Positions 665 to 64,000 of a DNA stretch of 64,000 nucleotides are shown here, one piece after another. Each line of letters opens with the position of its first letter. Position 1 is the stretch's first letter. The position numbers and the translations under genes are program-made. The stretch is from Limnohabitans lacus. Lineage in GTDB: Bacteria > Pseudomonadota > Gammaproteobacteria > Burkholderiales > Burkholderiaceae_C. The notes under the pieces are model-generated. The model saw only the letters and a program-made list of their open reading frames with translations. It did not search any database and was not told where the DNA came from. The stretch is from positions 1-64,000 of the forward strand of contig NZ_JASGBH010000012.1 in assembly GCF_030053395.1 (NCBI RefSeq), in the 5' to 3' direction.

Positions 665-1679
665 GATGACAAATGAACTGAGAGCGGGCGCATTGTTCGC
701 AGGTATTGGTGGCTTCTGTGTTGGGTTTCGCGAAGCTGGCATACCCACTGAGTGGGCTGTGGAACTAGATTCCGCCGCAGTCAACACCTATGAGGCCAAC
801 ATTGGCAAAGGGAAAATTGTCCGTCACGGCGATGTACCTGCGAGCATCATCGATGTAAGCGTTGCTGGCGACAGGCTCGGACAAGTAGATGTACTTCATG
901 CAGGGTTTCCATGCCAGAGCTTCTCTGTCGCGGGTGAGCGAAAGGGCTTTAACGACCCTCGTGGCCAGTTGTTCTACCAAATCATTCGATTAATCAAAGA
1001 GTTTGGCGAGTCTAGGCCCAGTGTTTTGCTTTTAGAAAATTCACCCAATCTAAAAATTGGAGATGGTGGTAGCTGGTTTATGGAGTTGAGCTCCCAACTC
1101 AAAAAATCTGGTTATTGGTTTCGTGAGTCAAATGCTATCGAGCTTGATTCGTACGATTACACCTATACACCGCAAAAGCGAAAACGCTTGTTCATGATTG
1201 CTTTTGCAACAAATCGATTTAAGAACGGAAAGATATCAATCTCTCCCACCCCACATGCAGACGAAAAAGATCTTTCTAAGTACATTGATTTTGATGGAGA
1301 AATCGCAGATGACTCCTACTACCTAGATGAAGACAACAAATACTTTCAAATGATCACAGAGAAGGTTGATGACAGAAGGTCAATATACCAACTTAGAAAG
1401 TATCTAGTGAGAGATAAAGGGGTAAATGTATGCCCAACATTGACGGCAAATATGGGGCTTGGTGGGCATAACGTCCCGTTCATCTTTGACAAAAAGGGAT
1501 TAAGAAAGTTGACAGAATTTGAATGCCTGAAAATGCAAGGCTTCCCATTTGACTACTTCTTCCCTAGTGATGTATCTCGTCCAAAAAGATATCAGCAGGT
1601 TGGAAACTCAGTAGTTCCACCCTTGATCAACATCATTGCAAATTCAATCAAAGAAAAAATTGAAAGTGAGAGAATCTAA
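636..1679 (+). CDS. dcm-like: DNA (cytosine-5-)methyltransferase
   Basis: 347 residues, the normal size for a type II C5 methyltransferase, which transfers a methyl group from SAM to cytosine C5 in a specific DNA site. Motifs in order: motif I FAGIGGF (SAM binding, ~res 21-27); motif IV GFPCQSFSVAG with the catalytic Cys in PCQ (~res 93); motif VI as ENSPNL instead of the usual ENV; motif VIII QKRKRLF; variable target-recognition region ~res 190-270; motif X GNSVVPPLI near the end. ATG 636 has AGGA just upstream; ATG 666, right after the small gene's stop, is an alternative. No Vsr or restriction endonuclease lies next to it. The stop overlaps the next ATG as TAATG, showing translational coupling with the ATPase. 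Modification of self DNA is the likely role in this operon. Confidence 0.95.
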   Translation: MANKPTSNSEMTNELRAGALFAGIGGFCVGFREAGIPTEWAVELDSAAVNTYEANIGKGKIVRHGDVPASIIDVSVAGDRLGQVDVLHAGFPCQSFSVAGERKGFNDPRGQLFYQIIRLIKEFGESRPSVLLLENSPNLKIGDGGSWFMELSSQLKKSGYWFRESNAIELDSYDYTYTPQKRKRLFMIAFATNRFKNGKISISPTPHADEKDLSKYIDFDGEIADDSYYLDEDNKYFQMITEKVDDRRSIYQLRKYLVRDKGVNVCPTLTANMGLGGHNVPFIFDKKGLRKLTEFECLKMQGFPFDYFFPSDVSRPKRYQQVGNSVVPPLINIIANSIKEKIESERI

Positions 1680-3586
1680 TGACAACTGGATGGAATCACC
1701 CCGTAGACGATGCCGACCAATGGGACGGCTTCAACGAGCCAGGCATTGAGCATTTCTCTGGTAGTCCGATAAGGCACCTTGCGCGAGAAGTAAACCAAAA
1801 CTCGCTTGATTCACACGATGAGAGAAGTTCCAAGCCCGTGATCGTTGAGTTTAAAAAGCGCTCGATTTCAACTCAATCTATTCCATCACTCGATGAACTA
1901 CGAGAGACATTTGCTTTCTGCAACAATGCTGCCGAGAACGAAAGCGCCAAGTCGAAGTCTTTTTTCGAGACTGCACTCAAAGAGCTGAGTTCCAAGAAAA
2001 TTACAGTACTCGAGATTGCGGACTACAACACTAAGGGCATTAAAGGACCCTCTCGAAATGGATCGCCCTTTTACGCCTTCATAAAAGCCAAAGGGCAAAG
2101 CAAAAAGGCATCAGAAACAGCGACAGGGTCTTTTGGCATTGGTAAGTTCGCACCCTATGCCGTTTCAAAATTAAGGACTGTATTTGTATCAACCGTCTTC
2201 GAAGACGAAGACGGAAAATATCAGCAACTTACTCAAGGTAAGTCCATCTTAATGTCTCACGATGACAAGGCTGGGCAACGACGACAGGGGATTGGATTTT
2301 GGGGTATCAAAGAAAAGTGCCAGCCAATCGACGGCATCGATCCTAAGATTTCAGATTGGCTTCGATGCTCTTCATCCACCGCTGATTACAAAAAACATGT
2401 CGGCACTAACCTGACAATTTTGGGGTTCAATGATGAAGAAGGCTGGGAAGAAAACTTGGCTGCTTCGATTGTGGAAAACTTCTTCGGATCCATCAAGGAA
2501 GGGAAACTAGAAGTACGAATTGGTGACAAATACGCGATCACTGCCAACTCGATTGACTCAATTTTTGCCTCTTCTGATATCAAATCTGCAATTGAGGATC
2601 AAAAAAATGAACCCGAACAATTCGAGCACAGCCAAAATTATTTGGAGTGTCTGGGCGAGAGTGCCGCTGTCATTATTGAACCTAAGCAAGACCCAATACT
2701 AGGTTTATGTGAGCTCCGTATCTTTGTGGGTGATGGCATGCCCAAAAAGGTGGCCTTCTTGCGAAATGGCATGTTCATTTCAGACTCACTCAATATCCAA
2801 GGCTTGAAAAGCTTCTCCGATTTCAAAGAGTTTGTCGCAGTTTTTCAATGCAAGAGCAAAGTAGGTATTGAGCTTCTTCGTGCTATGGAACCACCAAGAC
2901 ACGATGACTTTGAACCAGAGAGACTCCCAACTAAAGATGCTCAAGACCGAGGACGCAAAGCACTAAGAGGAGTTGCTCGCTGGATACGAGAACGGCTGCA
3001 ACGCCATGCGAAAGATCCCGTATCAGAAATCACAAAGCTGGATGAACTGAAAGACTTCTTTGCAGAAGAAGGCAATTCAGGTGAAGGGAACGGATCAGAA
3101 GAAATTAACCCGTACGGTTCGATCACCATAAAAGCGAAGCCTATTCCTGTACGAATGTCGAAAGTTCAGGTTCCTGAACAAGAAGGCTCTAGTCAAGGCA
3201 CTGATGGTGAAGATGGAGAAGGTGGCGGTGGCGCAGAAGGCGCTGGCGGTGGCGACGGCCAAGGTGGCAAAGGTACCTCGAAAGGAGGAACTGGCTCTGC
3301 CACGGCGAAACCAACCGTAGGATTGTCTAATTTGCGTGCTGTAGTGACTAGCGGGACAAGTCGCCGTATATCCTTTACCCCTCTGGTGAGCGGGACTATC
3401 GAGCTTAGCTTGTTTGAAGTTGGGGCTGATAGCGATTATCTGATTGCGGCGACCGCCTGTGGCAAGGGAAATATCAAGCACGGAAAGGTTCAACTTCCCG
3501 TAACGAAGGGTGAGCGAGAGTCAGTTGACATCACTCTCAGCGAAAACTTTACAGGTGCATTGAAGGTGGCTGGTCATGAAATTTGA
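1679..3586 (+). CDS. GHKL/MORC-type ATPase of the methyltransferase operon
   Basis: 635 residues. The N-terminal half has a Bergerat ATP-binding fold: N-box REVNQNSLDSHDE (~res 37-49), a G1-like box IADYNTKGIKG (~res 114-124) and G2 box GSFGIGKFAPYAVS (~res 148-161). Proteins of this type (MutL/MORC-like ATPases linked to restriction-modification loci, described by Iyer, Abhiman and Aravind) undergo ATP-driven clamp closure on DNA. A middle transducer region follows, then an acidic Gly/Glu-rich linker (~res 505-545) and a ~85-residue C-terminal part with alternating beta-strand pattern. There is no nuclease, helicase or transmembrane segment. Start overlaps dcm by one base; the next gene overlaps its end by 11 bases. 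The Z1 helicase and AIPR genes that accompany such ATPases in Mza-type loci are absent here. Confidence 0.8.
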   Translation: MTTGWNHPVDDADQWDGFNEPGIEHFSGSPIRHLAREVNQNSLDSHDERSSKPVIVEFKKRSISTQSIPSLDELRETFAFCNNAAENESAKSKSFFETALKELSSKKITVLEIADYNTKGIKGPSRNGSPFYAFIKAKGQSKKASETATGSFGIGKFAPYAVSKLRTVFVSTVFEDEDGKYQQLTQGKSILMSHDDKAGQRRQGIGFWGIKEKCQPIDGIDPKISDWLRCSSSTADYKKHVGTNLTILGFNDEEGWEENLAASIVENFFGSIKEGKLEVRIGDKYAITANSIDSIFASSDIKSAIEDQKNEPEQFEHSQNYLECLGESAAVIIEPKQDPILGLCELRIFVGDGMPKKVAFLRNGMFISDSLNIQGLKSFSDFKEFVAVFQCKSKVGIELLRAMEPPRHDDFEPERLPTKDAQDRGRKALRGVARWIRERLQRHAKDPVSEITKLDELKDFFAEEGNSGEGNGSEEINPYGSITIKAKPIPVRMSKVQVPEQEGSSQGTDGEDGEGGGGAEGAGGGDGQGGKGTSKGGTGSATAKPTVGLSNLRAVVTSGTSRRISFTPLVSGTIELSLFEVGADSDYLIAATACGKGNIKHGKVQLPVTKGERESVDITLSENFTGALKVAGHEI

Positions 3587-48298: not shown

Positions 48299-48365
48299 AT
48301 GTGGGAGCTTGCCTTGCAAGCGATCTGCATCTGGCGCCCATCGCGAGCAGGGCTCGCTCCTACAG
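48299..48365. repeat. REP-like hairpin B
   Basis: Imperfect arms ATGTGGGAGCTTGCCTTGCA(AGCGATC) and (GCGCCCATCGC)GAGCAGGGCTCGCTCCTACA between liuC and liuD; same family as hairpin A. Confidence 0.8.
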
Positions 48366-48385: not shown

Positions 48386-50470
48386 ATGTTTAAAAAAATC
48401 TTGATCGCCAACCGTGGCGAAATCGCTTGCCGCGTCGCGGCCACTGCCCGCCGCATGGGCATCCAAACCGTGGCGGTGTATTCCGACGCTGACGCCAGCG
48501 CCAAGCATGTGCAAGCCTGCGACGAAGCGGTGCATGTGGGCGGCTCAGCCCCCAAAGACAGCTACCTGCGTTGGGAGCGTATTTTGCAAGCCGCCAAGGA
48601 CACCGGCGCAGAGGCGGTGCACCCCGGTTACGGCTTTTTGAGCGAGAACGAAGACTTTGCCAAAGCCTGTGCTGCGGCCGGTTTGGTGTTCATCGGTCCA
48701 CCTGCCTCGGCCATTTTGGCGATGGGCCTCAAGGCAGAGTCCAAGCGATTGATGGAGTCGGCCGGTGTGCCGCTGGTGCCCGGCTACCACGGGGCTGATC
48801 AAGACCCCGCGCTGCTGCAGCGCGAGGCCGACCGCATCGGCTACCCCGCCCTCATCAAAGCCAGCGCCGGTGGCGGTGGCAAGGGCATGCGCGTGGTTGA
48901 GAAGTCTGAAGACTTCGCCGCAGCGCTCGCGAGTTGCAAGCGCGAAGCCATCAACAGCTTTGGCAGCGATGCGGTGCTGATCGAAAAGTACGTGCAGCGC
49001 CCACGCCACATCGAGATCCAGGTGTTTGGCGACACGCAGGGCAACTGTGTGTATTTGTTCGAGCGCGACTGCTCGGTGCAGCGCCGTCACCAAAAGGTGC
49101 TCGAAGAAGCCCCGGCCCCCGGCATGACCGAAGCCCTGCGTGCGCAGATGGGCGCAGCCGCTGTGGCCGCAGCCAAAGCCGTGAACTACGTGGGCGCGGG
49201 CACGGTGGAATTCATCGTCGAGCAGGTCGGCGCTTACGGACTGGCCGGAGCCGATGAAGGTTTCACCGCCGGGCCGCCCCAAGGCGAAACAGCCCCCTCG
49301 GGGGGCAGCGAACCACACGCAGAGGGGAGCGTGGGGGCACGATTTTTCTTCATGGAAATGAACACCCGCTTGCAGGTGGAGCACCCGGTGACCGAAGCGA
49401 TCACGGGCCTCGATTTGGTGGAGTGGCAACTGCGCGTGGCCAGTGGCGAGCCGCTGCCGCTGCAGCAAAGCGAGATCCGCATGACGGGCCACGCCATCGA
49501 AGCGCGCATCTGCGCCGAGAACCCCGACAACAACTTCTTGCCCGCGACCGGCTCCTTGCAGGTCTACCGCAAGCCACAAGCGGCCAGCTTTGAACGGAGC
49601 ACGATCCGCATCGACGACGGCGTCCGTGAAGGCGACACCATCAGCCCGTTTTACGACTCCATGGTGGCCAAGCTCATCGTGCATGGCGACACGCGTGAGC
49701 AGGCCTTGGCACGACTGGACACCGCATTGGCGCAGACCCAGATCGTGGGCCTGAACACCAATGTGCAGTTTCTGCGCCATGTGGTGCGATGCCACGCTTT
49801 TGCCACGGCCCAACTCGATACCGCACTCATCCAGCGCGAGAGCGCCGTGCTGTTCAAGCAAGACCACGTGGGCCTGCAAGCCGCTGCAGCGGCGGTGATC
49901 GCCGATGCTTTGCAGGCCGAAGCCGCCGCCCAAGGCGCAGACCCCTTCAGCCGCCGTGACGGCTGGCAGTCGCACGGCACCACGCGCCGGCGCTTCGAGC
50001 TCGAATACGACGGCCAGCCCGTGCGTTCGGTGCTGACTTACGGCCCGCAGCTGCGCTTGCAAGTGGGCGAGGGCGCTGAATCCGTTTTGGAGTTCACGCC
50101 CCAGGGCGATGGCCTGTGGGTGCAGTTCAACGGCCAGCGCATCCACAGCACGGTGCACGCGCAAGGTGAGGTGCGCCATGTGTTCGCCCCGCAAGGCGCA
50201 AGCCGCATCCATCTGCTCGACCCGCTGGCCCATGCCGGTGAGGCCGCGCAAGAAGGCGGCCGCCTGACAGCGCCCATGCCCGGCAAGGTGGTGTCGTTCG
50301 CCGTCAAGGCGGGCGACAAGGTCAAAGCCGGTCAAGCCTTGGCGGTGATGGAGGCCATGAAGATGGAGCACACCATCAGCGCCCCGAAAGATGGCACCGT
50401 GGCCGAGTTGCTCTACGCCCCAGGCGACCAAGTGACCGAAGGCGCCGAACTGCTCAAACTGGCCGCGTGA
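48386..50470 (+). CDS. liuD: 3-Methylcrotonyl-CoA carboxylase alpha subunit (biotin carboxylase and carrier)
   Basis: 694 residues from ATG 48386, which follows TGAGG; the ATG at 48374 is less likely. Biotin-carboxylase part: KILIANRGEIACRV, ATP-grasp loop ASAGGGGKGMRVV (~res 155-167), RHQKVLEEAPAPG, MEMNTRLQVEHPVTEAITG. C-terminal biotinyl domain with AVMEAMKMEHT. About 35 residues (~280-315; AGADEGFTAGPPQGETAPSG...) are inserted between VEFIVEQ and FFFMEMNTR and are encoded by a GC-rich hairpin repeat (49270-49341) in frame. The protein is correspondingly longer than usual. Works with LiuB. Confidence 0.95.
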   Translation: MFKKILIANRGEIACRVAATARRMGIQTVAVYSDADASAKHVQACDEAVHVGGSAPKDSYLRWERILQAAKDTGAEAVHPGYGFLSENEDFAKACAAAGLVFIGPPASAILAMGLKAESKRLMESAGVPLVPGYHGADQDPALLQREADRIGYPALIKASAGGGGKGMRVVEKSEDFAAALASCKREAINSFGSDAVLIEKYVQRPRHIEIQVFGDTQGNCVYLFERDCSVQRRHQKVLEEAPAPGMTEALRAQMGAAAVAAAKAVNYVGAGTVEFIVEQVGAYGLAGADEGFTAGPPQGETAPSGGSEPHAEGSVGARFFFMEMNTRLQVEHPVTEAITGLDLVEWQLRVASGEPLPLQQSEIRMTGHAIEARICAENPDNNFLPATGSLQVYRKPQAASFERSTIRIDDGVREGDTISPFYDSMVAKLIVHGDTREQALARLDTALAQTQIVGLNTNVQFLRHVVRCHAFATAQLDTALIQRESAVLFKQDHVGLQAAAAAVIADALQAEAAAQGADPFSRRDGWQSHGTTRRRFELEYDGQPVRSVLTYGPQLRLQVGEGAESVLEFTPQGDGLWVQFNGQRIHSTVHAQGEVRHVFAPQGASRIHLLDPLAHAGEAAQEGGRLTAPMPGKVVSFAVKAGDKVKAGQALAVMEAMKMEHTISAPKDGTVAELLYAPGDQVTEGAELLKLAA
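49270..49341. repeat. GC-rich repeat inserted in frame in liuD
   Basis: Core palindrome CCCCCTCGGGGGG at 49293-49305, flanked by CGCCCCAAGGCGAAACAG and CACACGCAGAGGGGAGCGTG. It resembles a repeat that I associate with Comamonadaceae intergenic regions. Here it codes for PPQGETAPSGGSEPHAEG. Confidence 0.7.
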
Positions 50471-50487
50471 GCTCCCACCTCGCCAAC

Positions 50488-50541
50488 TGATCGCCAGCAG
50501 GGCTGGCTCCCACGTGTAGGAGCTTGCCCTGCAAGCGATCA
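50488..50541. repeat. REP-like hairpin C (inverted order)
   Basis: TGATCGCCAGCAGGGCTGGC(TCCCAC) immediately followed by GTGTAGGAGCTTGCCCTGCA(AGCGATCA). The same arms as hairpin A but in the opposite order, between liuD and ghrA. Confidence 0.85.
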
Positions 50542-50597
50542 GTCGCCGGCCAACGCATGCGACATCCCGGTCATGGCCTTGCTGACAAAATCCACCC

Positions 50598-61800: not shown

Positions 61801-64000
61801 CCATGGGTGAAGTGGGGGTGGTCAGGGAAAAAGGCGTGGGCGATTGGGGGCTCGAGACTGGGCTGACACCGGGCGCCTCAGAAGTCGCTTCGCGCCACAC
61901 ATCGGCACCCGATGCCAGCCCAGCCTCGCGCGGGGCCCGTCAAGCACAAGGCCCGAACGCCATCCAAATCGTCAACGCCAAAGAACACAACCTCAAAAAC
62001 CTCAGCGTCAACATCCCGCGCGGAAAGTTCAATGTGGTCACCGGCGTCAGCGGTTCCGGCAAATCCACGCTCGCGTTCGACATCCTGTTCAACGAAGGCC
62101 AACGCCGTTATCTGGAGAGCCTCAACGCCTACGCCCGCTCCATCGTGCAGCCCGCCGGTCGCCCTGAAGTCGATGCGGTCTATGGCATCCCGCCCACGGT
62201 GGCGATCGAGCAGCGCCTCTCGCGCGGCGGCCGCAAATCCACCGTCGGCACCACCACCGAGGTCTGGCACTTCTTGCGGCTCTTGTACGTCAAGTTGGGC
62301 ATCCAGCACTGTGTGCACGACGATACGCCGGTGCAGCCGCAAACGCCCGACAGCATCGCCGCGCAGCTGATGACCCAGTTCAAGGGCCAACACATTGGTC
62401 TGCTGGCGCCCCTGGTGGTCAACCGCAAAGGCGTTTACACCGAGCTGGCCGACTGGGCGCGTCCACGCGGCTACACCCACTTGCGGGTGGACGGTGAGTT
62501 TTTGCCCACCACGGGTTTTCCGCGCATCGACCGTTTCAAAGAGCACAACATCGAGTTGCCCGTGGCCAGCCTGGATGTGCTGCCTGCGCAAGAGTCGGCG
62601 CTGCGCAAAGCGCTGAACACCGCGCTGGAGCACGGCAAGGGCGTGATGCATGTGCTGAGCGACTTGGATGGTTTGCGCGAAGCCCTGTTCAACGGCGAGT
62701 CTGCGGCCCGCATTGGCCAGCACCGGGTGTTTTCGACCTTGCGTGCCTGCCCGGCGTGTGACACGTCTTATGCCGAACTCGATCCACGTTTGTTCTCGTA
62801 CAACAGCAAACACGGCTGGTGCCCCGATTGCGTGGGCACGGGCGTCAAGCTCAGCAAAGACGAGCGCCAAGTGTTTGACGACTCGGTGCGTGACGACAAA
62901 GACAAAGGCCGCGAGCAAACCTTTGCCGAGCCTGAGATCGAAGACCTGGCCGATGTGGCCTGCCCCAGTTGTTCGGGCACGCGCCTGAACGCCACCGCCC
63001 GTGCGGTGCGCCTGGCCTCGGCCACAGGGCAAGCTTGGCGCATCACGGACATCGCCAGCTTGTCGGTCAGCGATGTGCGGCTGTGGGTCGAGCAATTGCA
63101 ACTCGTGGGCCGCGATGCCGACATCGCCCGCGATCTGGTGCCCGAGATCAAGAGCCGTTTGGAGTTTTTGGAAGAAGTGGGTTTGGGCTACCTCACGCTC
63201 GACCGCGGTGCACCGACTTTGTCAGGTGGCGAGGCGCAGCGCATCCGCCTGGCCGCGCAGTTGGGCAGCAACTTGCAGGGCGTTTGCTACGTGCTCGACG
63301 AGCCCACTATTGGCTTGCACGCTCGCGACAACCAGATCCTGCTGAATGCCCTGCACAAGCTGGGCGACAAAGGCAACACCCTGGTGGTAGTGGAGCACGA
63401 CGAAGACACCATCCGCCGCGCTGACCACATCATCGACATTGGCCCCAGCGCCGGCAAACGCGGTGGCCGTTTGGTGGCCGAAGGCTCGGTGGCCGACATC
63501 ACCGCTGCAACCGATTCGCAGACCGGTCGCTACCTGCTGCATGCGATGAAGCACCCTTTGCAAGCCCGCCGCACCGTGCATGCCGCTGTAGCCGCCAGCT
63601 CTGCTGTCGAGAAAGTGCTCGCTCTGGGTGGCGCATCGCTTGCAGGGCAAGCTCCTACCCCGGCTCGGACCTCGGTAGGCGCCAGCCCTGCTGGCGATTT
63701 GACCTGGCTCACCCTGACCGGCGCCAAGCTCCACAACCTGCGCCAAGTCGATGTGCAAGTGCCCCTCAAGCGCCTGGTCGCCGTCACGGGTGTGAGTGGC
63801 TCGGGCAAATCCACCCTGGCCCGCGATGTCTTGCTGGCCAATGTGCAGGCGCTGGTCAGCCAACGCTCGACATTTGCCGGTCGCACCGCACAAGACGGGG
63901 GGCAGCGCGTGGCCTTGTTTGCTTGTGCCGATGTGCAGGGATTTGAGACCATCGACCGGGTGCTCGAAGTGGACCAAACGCCGATTGGCAAAACACCGCG
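58848..64000 (+). CDS. uvrA: Double-length excinuclease ABC subunit A, 3' end outside the window
   Basis: Open in one frame from ATG 58848 to the window edge, at least 1717 residues. Two UvrA units are fused in tandem. Unit 1: Walker A GPSGSGKSS (~res 34) and GVSGSGKSS (~res 664), signature LSGGEVQR and LSGGEAQR, zinc-type CPTCSG and CPTCGGSG. Unit 2: GVSGSGKST (~res 1066) and again (~res 1648), LSGGEAQR, CPDCVGTG and CPSCSGTR. A ~65-residue low-complexity linker joins them (~res 985-1045). Such two-unit UvrA proteins of ~2000 residues occur in Burkholderiales. Damage recognition in nucleotide excision repair. A REP-like repeat is embedded in frame at 63635-63698. Confidence 0.93.
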   Translation, partial: MSQGLIRIRGARQHNLKNIDLDIRTGELTVVTGPSGSGKSSLVFDTLYAEGQRRYVETFSAYARQFLDRMDKPAVDKVEGVPPAIAIDQTNPVRSSRSTVGTMTELNDHLKLSFARLGQLFDKETAQPVRHDTPETIYAELAQRAVQAQDPRLYLTFPVELPANTSAEQVEQWLSASGFTKVQAEREVATPTGPRKVLDVVADRFRLGAAEKIRVIEAIEVALKRGSGRLNVYVEGESGAELWRFSTGLHCPDSDLRYTDPIPSMFSFNSAVGACETCRGFGRVIGVDYGLVIPNDKLTLRAGAIKTIQTPAWKECQDDLMRHAETEGIPRDTAWAQLSEEHKHWVIHGSPLWKGKWNQQWYGIKRFFEYLESKAYKMHIRVLLSKYRSYTECPTCSGARLKTESLLWRMGSAEDANAVLPPAQRFMPAGVKWTRAQLEALPGLSLHDMMIMPIDQLRRFFDRMSATAVAEASQDAEAQALKLLLEEITTRLKYLCDVGIGYLTLDRQSRTLSGGEVQRINLTTALGTSLVNTLFVLDEPSIGLHPRDMNRITQAMHRLRDAGNTLVVVEHDPAVMLAADRMIDMGPGPGERGGQIVFDGSTADLRNADTLTGAYLGGRKQVGLGFKRMVSDSTPRLILEGAREHNLQNISVDFPLQRLVTITGVSGSGKSSLIQDVLAPALMRHFGKATETPGAHDRLLGADHLSDVVFVDQSPIGKTARSNPVSYVGAWDAIREIFATAPESRQRGYTASKFSFNSGDGRCPTCGGSGFEHVEMQFLSDVYLRCPDCNGQRYRPEILEIKIERQALGGQPRMLNVADILDLTVSEAAALFAQDRDVIRALQPIVDVGLEYVRLGQPVPTLSGGEAQRLKLAGFLAEAAKSAAKSRQSLARKGTLFLFDEPTTGLHFDDIAKLMRALRKLLEAGHSLIVIEHNLDVIRASDWLIDLGPEGGYAGGLIVAQGTPEDVRQHATSHTGLALREYAESMGEVGVVREKGVGDWGLETGLTPGASEVASRHTSAPDASPASRGARQAQGPNAIQIVNAKEHNLKNLSVNIPRGKFNVVTGVSGSGKSTLAFDILFNEGQRRYLESLNAYARSIVQPAGRPEVDAVYGIPPTVAIEQRLSRGGRKSTVGTTTEVWHFLRLLYVKLGIQHCVHDDTPVQPQTPDSIAAQLMTQFKGQHIGLLAPLVVNRKGVYTELADWARPRGYTHLRVDGEFLPTTGFPRIDRFKEHNIELPVASLDVLPAQESALRKALNTALEHGKGVMHVLSDLDGLREALFNGESAARIGQHRVFSTLRACPACDTSYAELDPRLFSYNSKHGWCPDCVGTGVKLSKDERQVFDDSVRDDKDKGREQTFAEPEIEDLADVACPSCSGTRLNATARAVRLASATGQAWRITDIASLSVSDVRLWVEQLQLVGRDADIARDLVPEIKSRLEFLEEVGLGYLTLDRGAPTLSGGEAQRIRLAAQLGSNLQGVCYVLDEPTIGLHARDNQILLNALHKLGDKGNTLVVVEHDEDTIRRADHIIDIGPSAGKRGGRLVAEGSVADITAATDSQTGRYLLHAMKHPLQARRTVHAAVAASSAVEKVLALGGASLAGQAPTPARTSVGASPAGDLTWLTLTGAKLHNLRQVDVQVPLKRLVAVTGVSGSGKSTLARDVLLANVQALVSQRSTFAGRTAQDGGQRVALFACADVQGFETIDRVLEVDQTPIGKTP
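63635..63698. repeat. REP-like hairpin D inside uvrA
   Basis: ATCGCTTGCAGGGCAAGCTC(CTACC) and (GGTAGGC)GCCAGCCCTGCTGGCGAT; same arms and order as hairpin C. It lies in the coding frame of uvrA around residues 1596-1617, adding a Gly/Ala/Pro-rich segment (ASLAGQAPTPARTSVGASPA) just before the last ATPase domain. Confidence 0.85.

Follow-up and report, generated by a model that had tools for sequence, protein, structure and literature searches.

REP and REPIN elements, known together with the RAYT transposases, are short palindromic dispersed repeats that occur singly or in arrays. The Beta-proteobacterial Repeat Element (BRE) was described by Hot et al. (2011, BMC Genomics 12:207, PMC3110155); in the sections of that paper drawn upon here it measures 75-91 bp, has a GC content of 63.7-78.9% in Bordetella, occurs in tandem, extends to Polaromonas, Delftia, Acidovorax and others, and has one copy that is transcribed in Bordetella as the sRNA bprJ. 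BREs are mostly intergenic, the occurrence of some of them wholly inside coding sequences being noted in one sentence that gives neither frames nor protein names nor recurrence, and BRE locus 3 in Bordetella consists of a pair of copies beside lexA (PMC3110155). In-frame palindromic repeats in conserved proteins are best known from the obligate intracellular Rickettsia, whose RPE, 105-146 bp long, is described in the parts of the reports used here as lying in frame in conserved protein genes, with a guanylate kinase that carries it staying active (PMC2229807, PMC3733652). Small mobile elements of enterobacteria and Neisseria are also covered there as forming in-frame fusions to conserved proteins (PMC2229807, same part). 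In the literature searched for the present repeat inside proteins, PMC3110155 was the sole relevant paper; the accessible part of PMC4666352 names none of the bacteria considered here, and PMC2755013 was set aside as an account of the repeat, the palindromic repeats in its accessible part being CRISPR.

A coding insert in LiuD of Limnohabitans lacus

The window analysed here, a stretch of 64,000 nucleotides from Limnohabitans lacus, contains a liuD gene whose product is a full-length MCC alpha with the conserved motifs of the family. Its best sequence match in the PDB is the P. aeruginosa MCC alpha 3u9s (E 1.2e-186), and the best structural match to its model is the human MCC. The gene adjoins other genes of the leucine pathway, with full-length family matches to HMG-CoA lyase (above the cut-off), a carboxyltransferase family (below the curated cut-off) and enoyl-CoA hydratases (below the cut-offs). 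The reading frame is open right through the insert region and conserved family columns are present on either side of it, which bears out the claims of the first-pass annotation that the motifs are intact and that a pair of strands in the ATP-grasp domain is interrupted, in frame, by a GC-rich repeat. The palindrome to which it drew attention, CCCCCTCGGGGGG, is found at 49293-49305. Its estimate of about 35 extra residues holds as to the presence of an insert and fails as to size, since 39 residues replace 10 and the net gain is 29.

Features of the window liuD gene and of the repeat copy within it
Feature	Positions	Strand	Description	Basis or state
liuD	48386..50470	+	3-methylcrotonyl-CoA carboxylase alpha (biotin-containing) subunit	694 aa, intact frame
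Insert in LiuD	49226..49342	+	39 residues (281-319) replacing TAYDQPESMK of most other Limnohabitans LiuD	LiuD alignments
Left part of insert	49226..49259	+	34 nt (VGAYGLAGADEG), hairpin sequence, unmatched by other repeat copies of the genome	
Dispersed-repeat copy (BRE-like element)	49260..49338	+	79 nt, open in 5/6 frames	
Hairpin 1	49260..49290	+	arms GTTTCACC (49260-49267) and GGCGAAAC (49283-49290); arms covary between copies	
Hairpin 2	49292..49306	+	GCCCCC-TC-GGGGGGC, contains the palindrome of the first-pass annotation; hardly varies between copies	
Hairpin 3 region	49311..49338	+	AACCACACGC...GCGTGGGGGC; one-sided changes only between copies	

Between GTVEFI and MNTRLQVEHP the window protein reads VEQ-VGAYGLAGADEGFTAGPPQGETAPSGGSEPHAEGSVGAR-FFFME. 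A search for relatives gave a match in 42 of 60 genomes, and 30 LiuD loci were fetched. The spacer between GTVEFI and MNTR in these comprises 18 residues in 20 congeners (mostly VEQTAYDQPESMKFFFME), 20 residues in six congeners and 11 in two genomes of other families, so that 28 of the 30 loci fall between 11 and 20; the window (L017) has 47 residues and one congener (G002, L018) has 39. The altered stretch is 39 residues long as against 10 in 20 of 28 congeneric loci, most congeners thus having the short form and the window the long one. Among 80 named GTDB loci, 78 have a spacer of 10-19 residues and two have one of 47: L055, from a Hydrogenophaga MAG, and L053, from a Burkholderiales MAG. 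With 78 of 80 loci free of it, the insert is not an ancestral feature of all betaproteobacterial LiuD proteins. Native loops at this hairpin range from 10 to 20 residues, a variation which suggests that the turn tolerates changes in length.

About 26 of the inserted residues derive from the repeat, and the 12 that precede them represent hairpin sequence. The version in L018 is without 24 nt of the element, in frame and between GGGG runs, the left half of hairpin 3 being included in the missing part; slippage may account for this loss. In two pairs of closely placed LiuD genes from Rhodoferax-like bacteria (L056 and L079, L071 and L078) the hairpin types differ, PGGYEHPEQMK versus KPDGSMQ, as may be expected if this short segment were often exchanged.

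Copies of another, REP-like family, in which GAGCTTGCCNTGCAAGCGATC is accompanied by an inverted partner, lie on either side of liuD, at 48300-48365 and 50481-50548, and this family is seen again near the end of the window at 63634-63654 (3 matches observed, 0.03 expected). The same genome has one Y1 transposase match (G000:C23:48959), which may be associated with this second family.

The repeat family and its copies in other coding frames

The 13-mer palindrome gives a single match in the search allowing two or fewer mismatches, with 2.49 expected by chance, and was accordingly discarded as a signal in its own right. A 131-base query around the insert, by contrast with this short word, finds 11 places in the genome, the 79-nt element occurring at 10 places besides liuD (E 2.0e-23 to 5.4e-5), namely two tandem pairs and six singles. 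Inspection of reading frames places most of these copies at gene ends or starts. The liuD copy alone is clearly internal, in an assignment that covers all copies but those of L015 and L016, of which the L016 one is partial. In L009 (2975-3764, contig C3 of the same genome), a single open frame runs from an upstream ATG through a copy of the repeat into the body of an ABC protein (LolD-like as judged by eye), which the repeat might extend at its N-terminus.

In an alignment of 44 copies (the window copy and 43 of two other genomes) the element measures about 80 nt and has the consensus CGnTCCGCCGCCGGGCCGCCCCAAGGCGGAACAGCCCCCTCGGGGGGCAGCGAACCACACGCAGTGGGGAGCGTGGGGGC, which folds into three hairpins with five helices. 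The outer stem of the first hairpin (helix 1) is the sole helix that changes on both sides together: compensatory cells number 57 here and 16.3 on average in shuffles, with none of 500 shuffles as high and slid registers yielding 4-12. Coarser measures are less striking, both-side-changed pairs numbering 6 versus 4.4 (36/500 shuffles) and further pair types 17 versus 15.4 (98/500). No strong single-strand DNA fold was found for the window copy (z -0.99, 35 of 200 shuffles being equally stable). Rfam gave no match at the gathering score in 12 sources, the insert itself producing sub-threshold hits only.

The element is unusually free of stops: all six frames are open in 51 of 95 copies as compared with 93 of 872 random 80-mers from the same regions. 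In the liuD frame it translates to a Gly/Pro/Ser/Ala-rich peptide (FTAGPPQGETAPSGGSEPHAEGSVGA), which is probably disordered, and a search with this peptide finds the element in 41 of 120 genomes of the bacterial family (E<=0.01). The element occupies at least 43, at least 40 and at least 51 places in three genomes. The 95 copies of two of the genomes studied, G172 and G113 (51 and 44 respectively), make up 81 sites, including 7 tandem arrays with a spacing of 80-84 nt. One array in G172 has five copies at an exact spacing of 81 nt (L188, C1:2692255-2692649) and another has four copies spaced by 80-83 nt (L175, C1:1484757-1485074).

The phyletic pattern and context of the repeat agree with those of BRE. 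It is present in 12 of 15 Bordetella-group genomes and in 16 of 21 further Burkholderiales genomes reached via the named loci, with 4 matches in Burkholderia anthina; it was not found in the Massilia, Cupriavidus, Herbaspirillum, Lampropedia and Limnohabitans sp. 15K genomes searched among those 21. It occurs in several to tens of copies in Bordetella and Comamonadaceae, and both its length (79 nt) and the few bases between its tandem copies fall within the description of BRE. In a Bordetella-group genome, a tandem pair occupies 1501-1656 of L259 and stops 17 bp short of the 3' end of lexA (1673-2401, minus strand; NCBIfam lexA equivalog, E 4.3e-69), which is the context of BRE locus 3. On the basis of description, taxa and lexA context, the inserted repeat is very probably BRE.

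A codon model trained on the same regions was used to classify the 81 sites in G172 and G113. Twelve of them (8 and 4, respectively) have coding sequence on both sides in one and the same open frame, within conserved genes; 48 are coding on both sides in different frames, 13 are in the same frame with a stop, and 8 are coding on one side only. The 13 same-frame sites with a stop were left out as internal, the repeat lying in the first few codons or the frame having 36 codons or fewer. Two of the twelve hosts are Mpl proteins, one in each genus, with the element at the same position; the others are FdhD, CobQ, UvrA, an MsbA-like ABC transporter, an acyl-CoA dehydrogenase, a protein in which the element lies in the linker between a monooxygenase-like and an OYE-like domain, kynureninase, XdhA, MoeA and a biotin-carboxylase paralog. 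Family matches span the repeat or flank it on both sides in 11 of the 12; in FdhD two stretches match, of which the left one is displayed among the matches listed. The element is read forward at eight of these sites and in reverse at four. Six of ten frames taken from the loci found with the LiuD-frame peptide have matches spanning the repeat, namely MoeA (two genera), RecJ, acetoacetate-CoA ligase, a CoA-transferase and Mpl, the last being the G172 Mpl again; L153 and L156, for which the matches listed lie to one side of the repeat, and L159 and L163, in which the repeat lies upstream of the domain, were not counted. In one and the same loop of MoeA the element reads forward in two genomes (G073, G109) and in reverse in a third (G172), and hence at least two events must have occurred there.

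Recurrence at the biotin-carboxylase hairpin and the origin of the window allele

A 63-residue query covering the window hairpin recovers the repeat in frame, in all cases in the hairpin of a biotin carboxylase, in 15 of 299 genomes of the family representing 13 of 141 genera (E<=1e-12), a query that favours the liuD frame and orientation. A search in one reverse frame, run with no positive control, found no reverse-orientation copies at this hairpin in the 299 genomes. In a tree of 98 proteins built without the hairpin, five of the sequences that carry the insert stand apart as a paralog (100, starred, on a long branch), and therefore at least two insertions at this loop are independent. Mapping of the insert on this tree entails 11 changes, at least six of them forced by starred branches, with gains, losses and transfers counted alike. 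In L132 (G060) the stretch that precedes the repeat in the LiuD hairpin, AGSVGAEVS, looks like the end of another copy and may be what is left of a tandem pair once inserted in this coding gene. The repeat family, the paralog and the recurrence across genera had all escaped the first-pass annotation.

The distribution of the insert conflicts with the gene tree. The two Limnohabitans versions, L017 of the window and L018, belong to two different clades of the genus, and their union is rejected (p-AU 2e-53), as is a clade of L017, L018, L055, L128 and L129 (3e-53); these tests used a quick tree and groups named after the first tree had been seen. In all five the left part, between VEQ and the element, has the same length of 34 nt and the same reading. 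At the protein level the 12 left residues of the window resemble those of L018, L055 and L128 better than do any of 5000 shuffles, with 3 of 5000 as high for L129, while their similarity to the native TAYDQPESMK is at chance level (2248 of 5000). At the DNA level the left part is 79.4% identical to that of L018, 67.6% to L128, 64.7% to L055 and 61.8% to L129, and 70.6% identical to the native hairpin of the congener L021, all of these values except that for L129 exceeding 2000 shuffles. The element itself is closest to copies of G113 and G172 that lie outside LiuD, with L055 ranking tenth and the best copy from the genome of the window in 26th place among 122. The 60 bp that flank the insert on each side are 95% identical to L021.

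These observations suggest that the window allele probably shares its origin with the alleles of other genera, and short-tract exchange is the likelier source of the shared allele as compared with fresh insertion. The competing scenario, in which G000 and G002 each acquired the element by a separate insertion into the native Limnohabitans liuD hairpin, alleles not being exchanged, draws on the likeness of the left 34 nt to the native hairpin of L021, on the Limnohabitans-like character of the gene to within 60 bp on both sides, and on insertions in other lineages with unrelated left flanks (L053, L137, L133 and L140). The common length and reading of the left part in five loci, and the fact that its protein similarity extends beyond the shuffles for L018, L055 and L128 but not for the native loop, run counter to this scenario, which we regard as the less likely of the two, though it deserves serious attention. 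Exchange of alleles between genera is weakly supported by the data.

Effect on the protein, mobility and comparison with known repeats

An AlphaFold2 model of LiuD based on 59 sequences has a mean pLDDT of 87.7 and a pTM of 0.85. Residues 286-317 fall below a pLDDT of 50, and the strands on both sides, 270-279 and 320-326, are formed, so that the fold is predicted to be intact with the insert as a disordered loop. The first-pass proposal of a tolerated surface hairpin is in keeping with this model, and its mild interpretation is on the whole mostly right and partly supported. The strands bordering the insert presumably hold catalytic residues, as in the E. coli biotin carboxylase. The enzyme is likely to retain activity in view of its open frame, its conserved columns and the occurrence of the insert in many genera, and the effect of the insert would then be near-neutral.

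The way in which the element moves was approached through its flanks and through candidate transposases. Target duplications show no clear excess over shuffles at the 69 measurable of 81 sites: flank-shared words of at least 6 bases occur at four sites versus 2.1 expected, one of them with 8 bases versus 0.1. These near-shuffled numbers led us to reject a MITE with target-site duplication, and no target motif was found at the repeat sites. A Y1/RAYT transposase was rejected as the mover across 18 genomes, as Y1 genes (PF01797), present in 16 of them, are unrelated in their occurrence to copy number; G387 has none and 59 repeat matches, and five genomes have one or two and no repeat. In the face of neither a duplication excess, nor a motif, nor a link to Y1, the case for mobility of the element is indirect. 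A design in which the length is a multiple of three was also rejected: in a set of 72 of 95 copies with measurable length, the 62 outside the in-frame loci split 21, 16 and 25 across the length classes. This lack of bias suggests that the in-frame copies are survivors of selection.

Taken together, we assign a probability of roughly 0.8 to the reading that the insert is a dispersed palindromic repeat, very probably BRE, which was made coding at the turn of a β-hairpin in the biotin-carboxylase domain. An element of some 80 nt, with three possible hairpins and for the most part five or six open frames, would have left a copy at this turn; because the element read in the liuD frame is probably a disordered stretch, a frame-keeping insertion would add a floppy loop and leave the fold undisturbed. 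Copies that break genes would be lost, in-frame ones in tolerant loops would survive, and the Limnohabitans copy would have arrived as an allele common to other genera through short-tract exchange.

Other explanations fit the data less well. The insert might be a selected functional part, either as a protein loop with a role in regulation or assembly or as an RNA hairpin that affects the translation or processing of the liu mRNA, and the retention of hairpin 1 by compensatory changes across copies, as well as the transcription of a BRE copy as bprJ in Bordetella (PMC3110155), could be taken to favour this. We consider it improbable, given that L018 is without 24 nt of the insert, including the left half of hairpin 3, that most LiuDs have no insert at all, and that covariation drawn from 44 copies, only 8 of them in frame, has little bearing on protein-coding copies. 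Still less probable is a LiuD that is disabled or turning into a pseudogene: a net insertion of 29 residues between two strands that we take to carry catalytic residues might suggest as much, but the 694-codon open frame with its conserved family columns, the full-length family matches of the neighbouring genes, the fold predicted to be intact and the in-frame insert alleles in 13 genera all oppose it. Although repeats can confuse assemblies, an artefact of assembly or binning has a negligible likelihood, as L018, L055 and L128, all from other genomes, have similar insert alleles joined at the same point.

Beyond the window allele, one may see BRE as a mobile element that inserts into the proteins of a large bacterial family, most of whose members are free-living. 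It would repeatedly enter the same surface loops of conserved enzymes and add a ready-made disordered peptide, and the alleles with enlarged loops would then pass between genera by short recombination. The same-loop cases behind this view are the biotin-carboxylase hairpin (two paralogs), the MoeA loop (both orientations) and the Mpl site (two genera); it is a tentative view that we hold at less than even odds, and, if true, the evolution of loops would be partly driven by a DNA parasite. The bacteria concerned are GC-rich Burkholderiales of ordinary genome size (2.4 to 7 million bases among those searched), and the enzymes are easily assayed. As empty, shortened and full alleles exist in related species, whether the insert is neutral, harmful or useful is directly testable.

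The repeat itself (BRE) was already known, as were, from one sentence, its copies within coding sequences; what is new relative to the literature searched is the in-frame position in named conserved proteins, the recurrence at individual loops and the possible exchange of insert alleles. BRE and the present repeat have in common the GC-rich, dispersed and tandem character, the taxa and the pair beside lexA, and they differ in the in-frame positions, proteins and recurrence reported here as against the single sentence of the 2011 account. REP and REPIN elements are set apart from the present repeat by its length of about 80 nt, its three hairpins and its copy number, unrelated to Y1 transposase. 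The enterobacterial and Neisseria elements are other families, most of which, in the part of PMC2229807 used here, have terminal inverted repeats and target duplications, in contrast to the present repeat with its lack of a flanking-duplication excess. By analogy, the present repeat acts like the palindromic elements of Rickettsia: compared by description, and as far as the consulted parts of those reports go, it resembles RPE in lying in frame within conserved protein genes, and it differs in being about 80 nt long, in belonging to GC-rich Burkholderiales and in recurring at the same loop in two paralogs.
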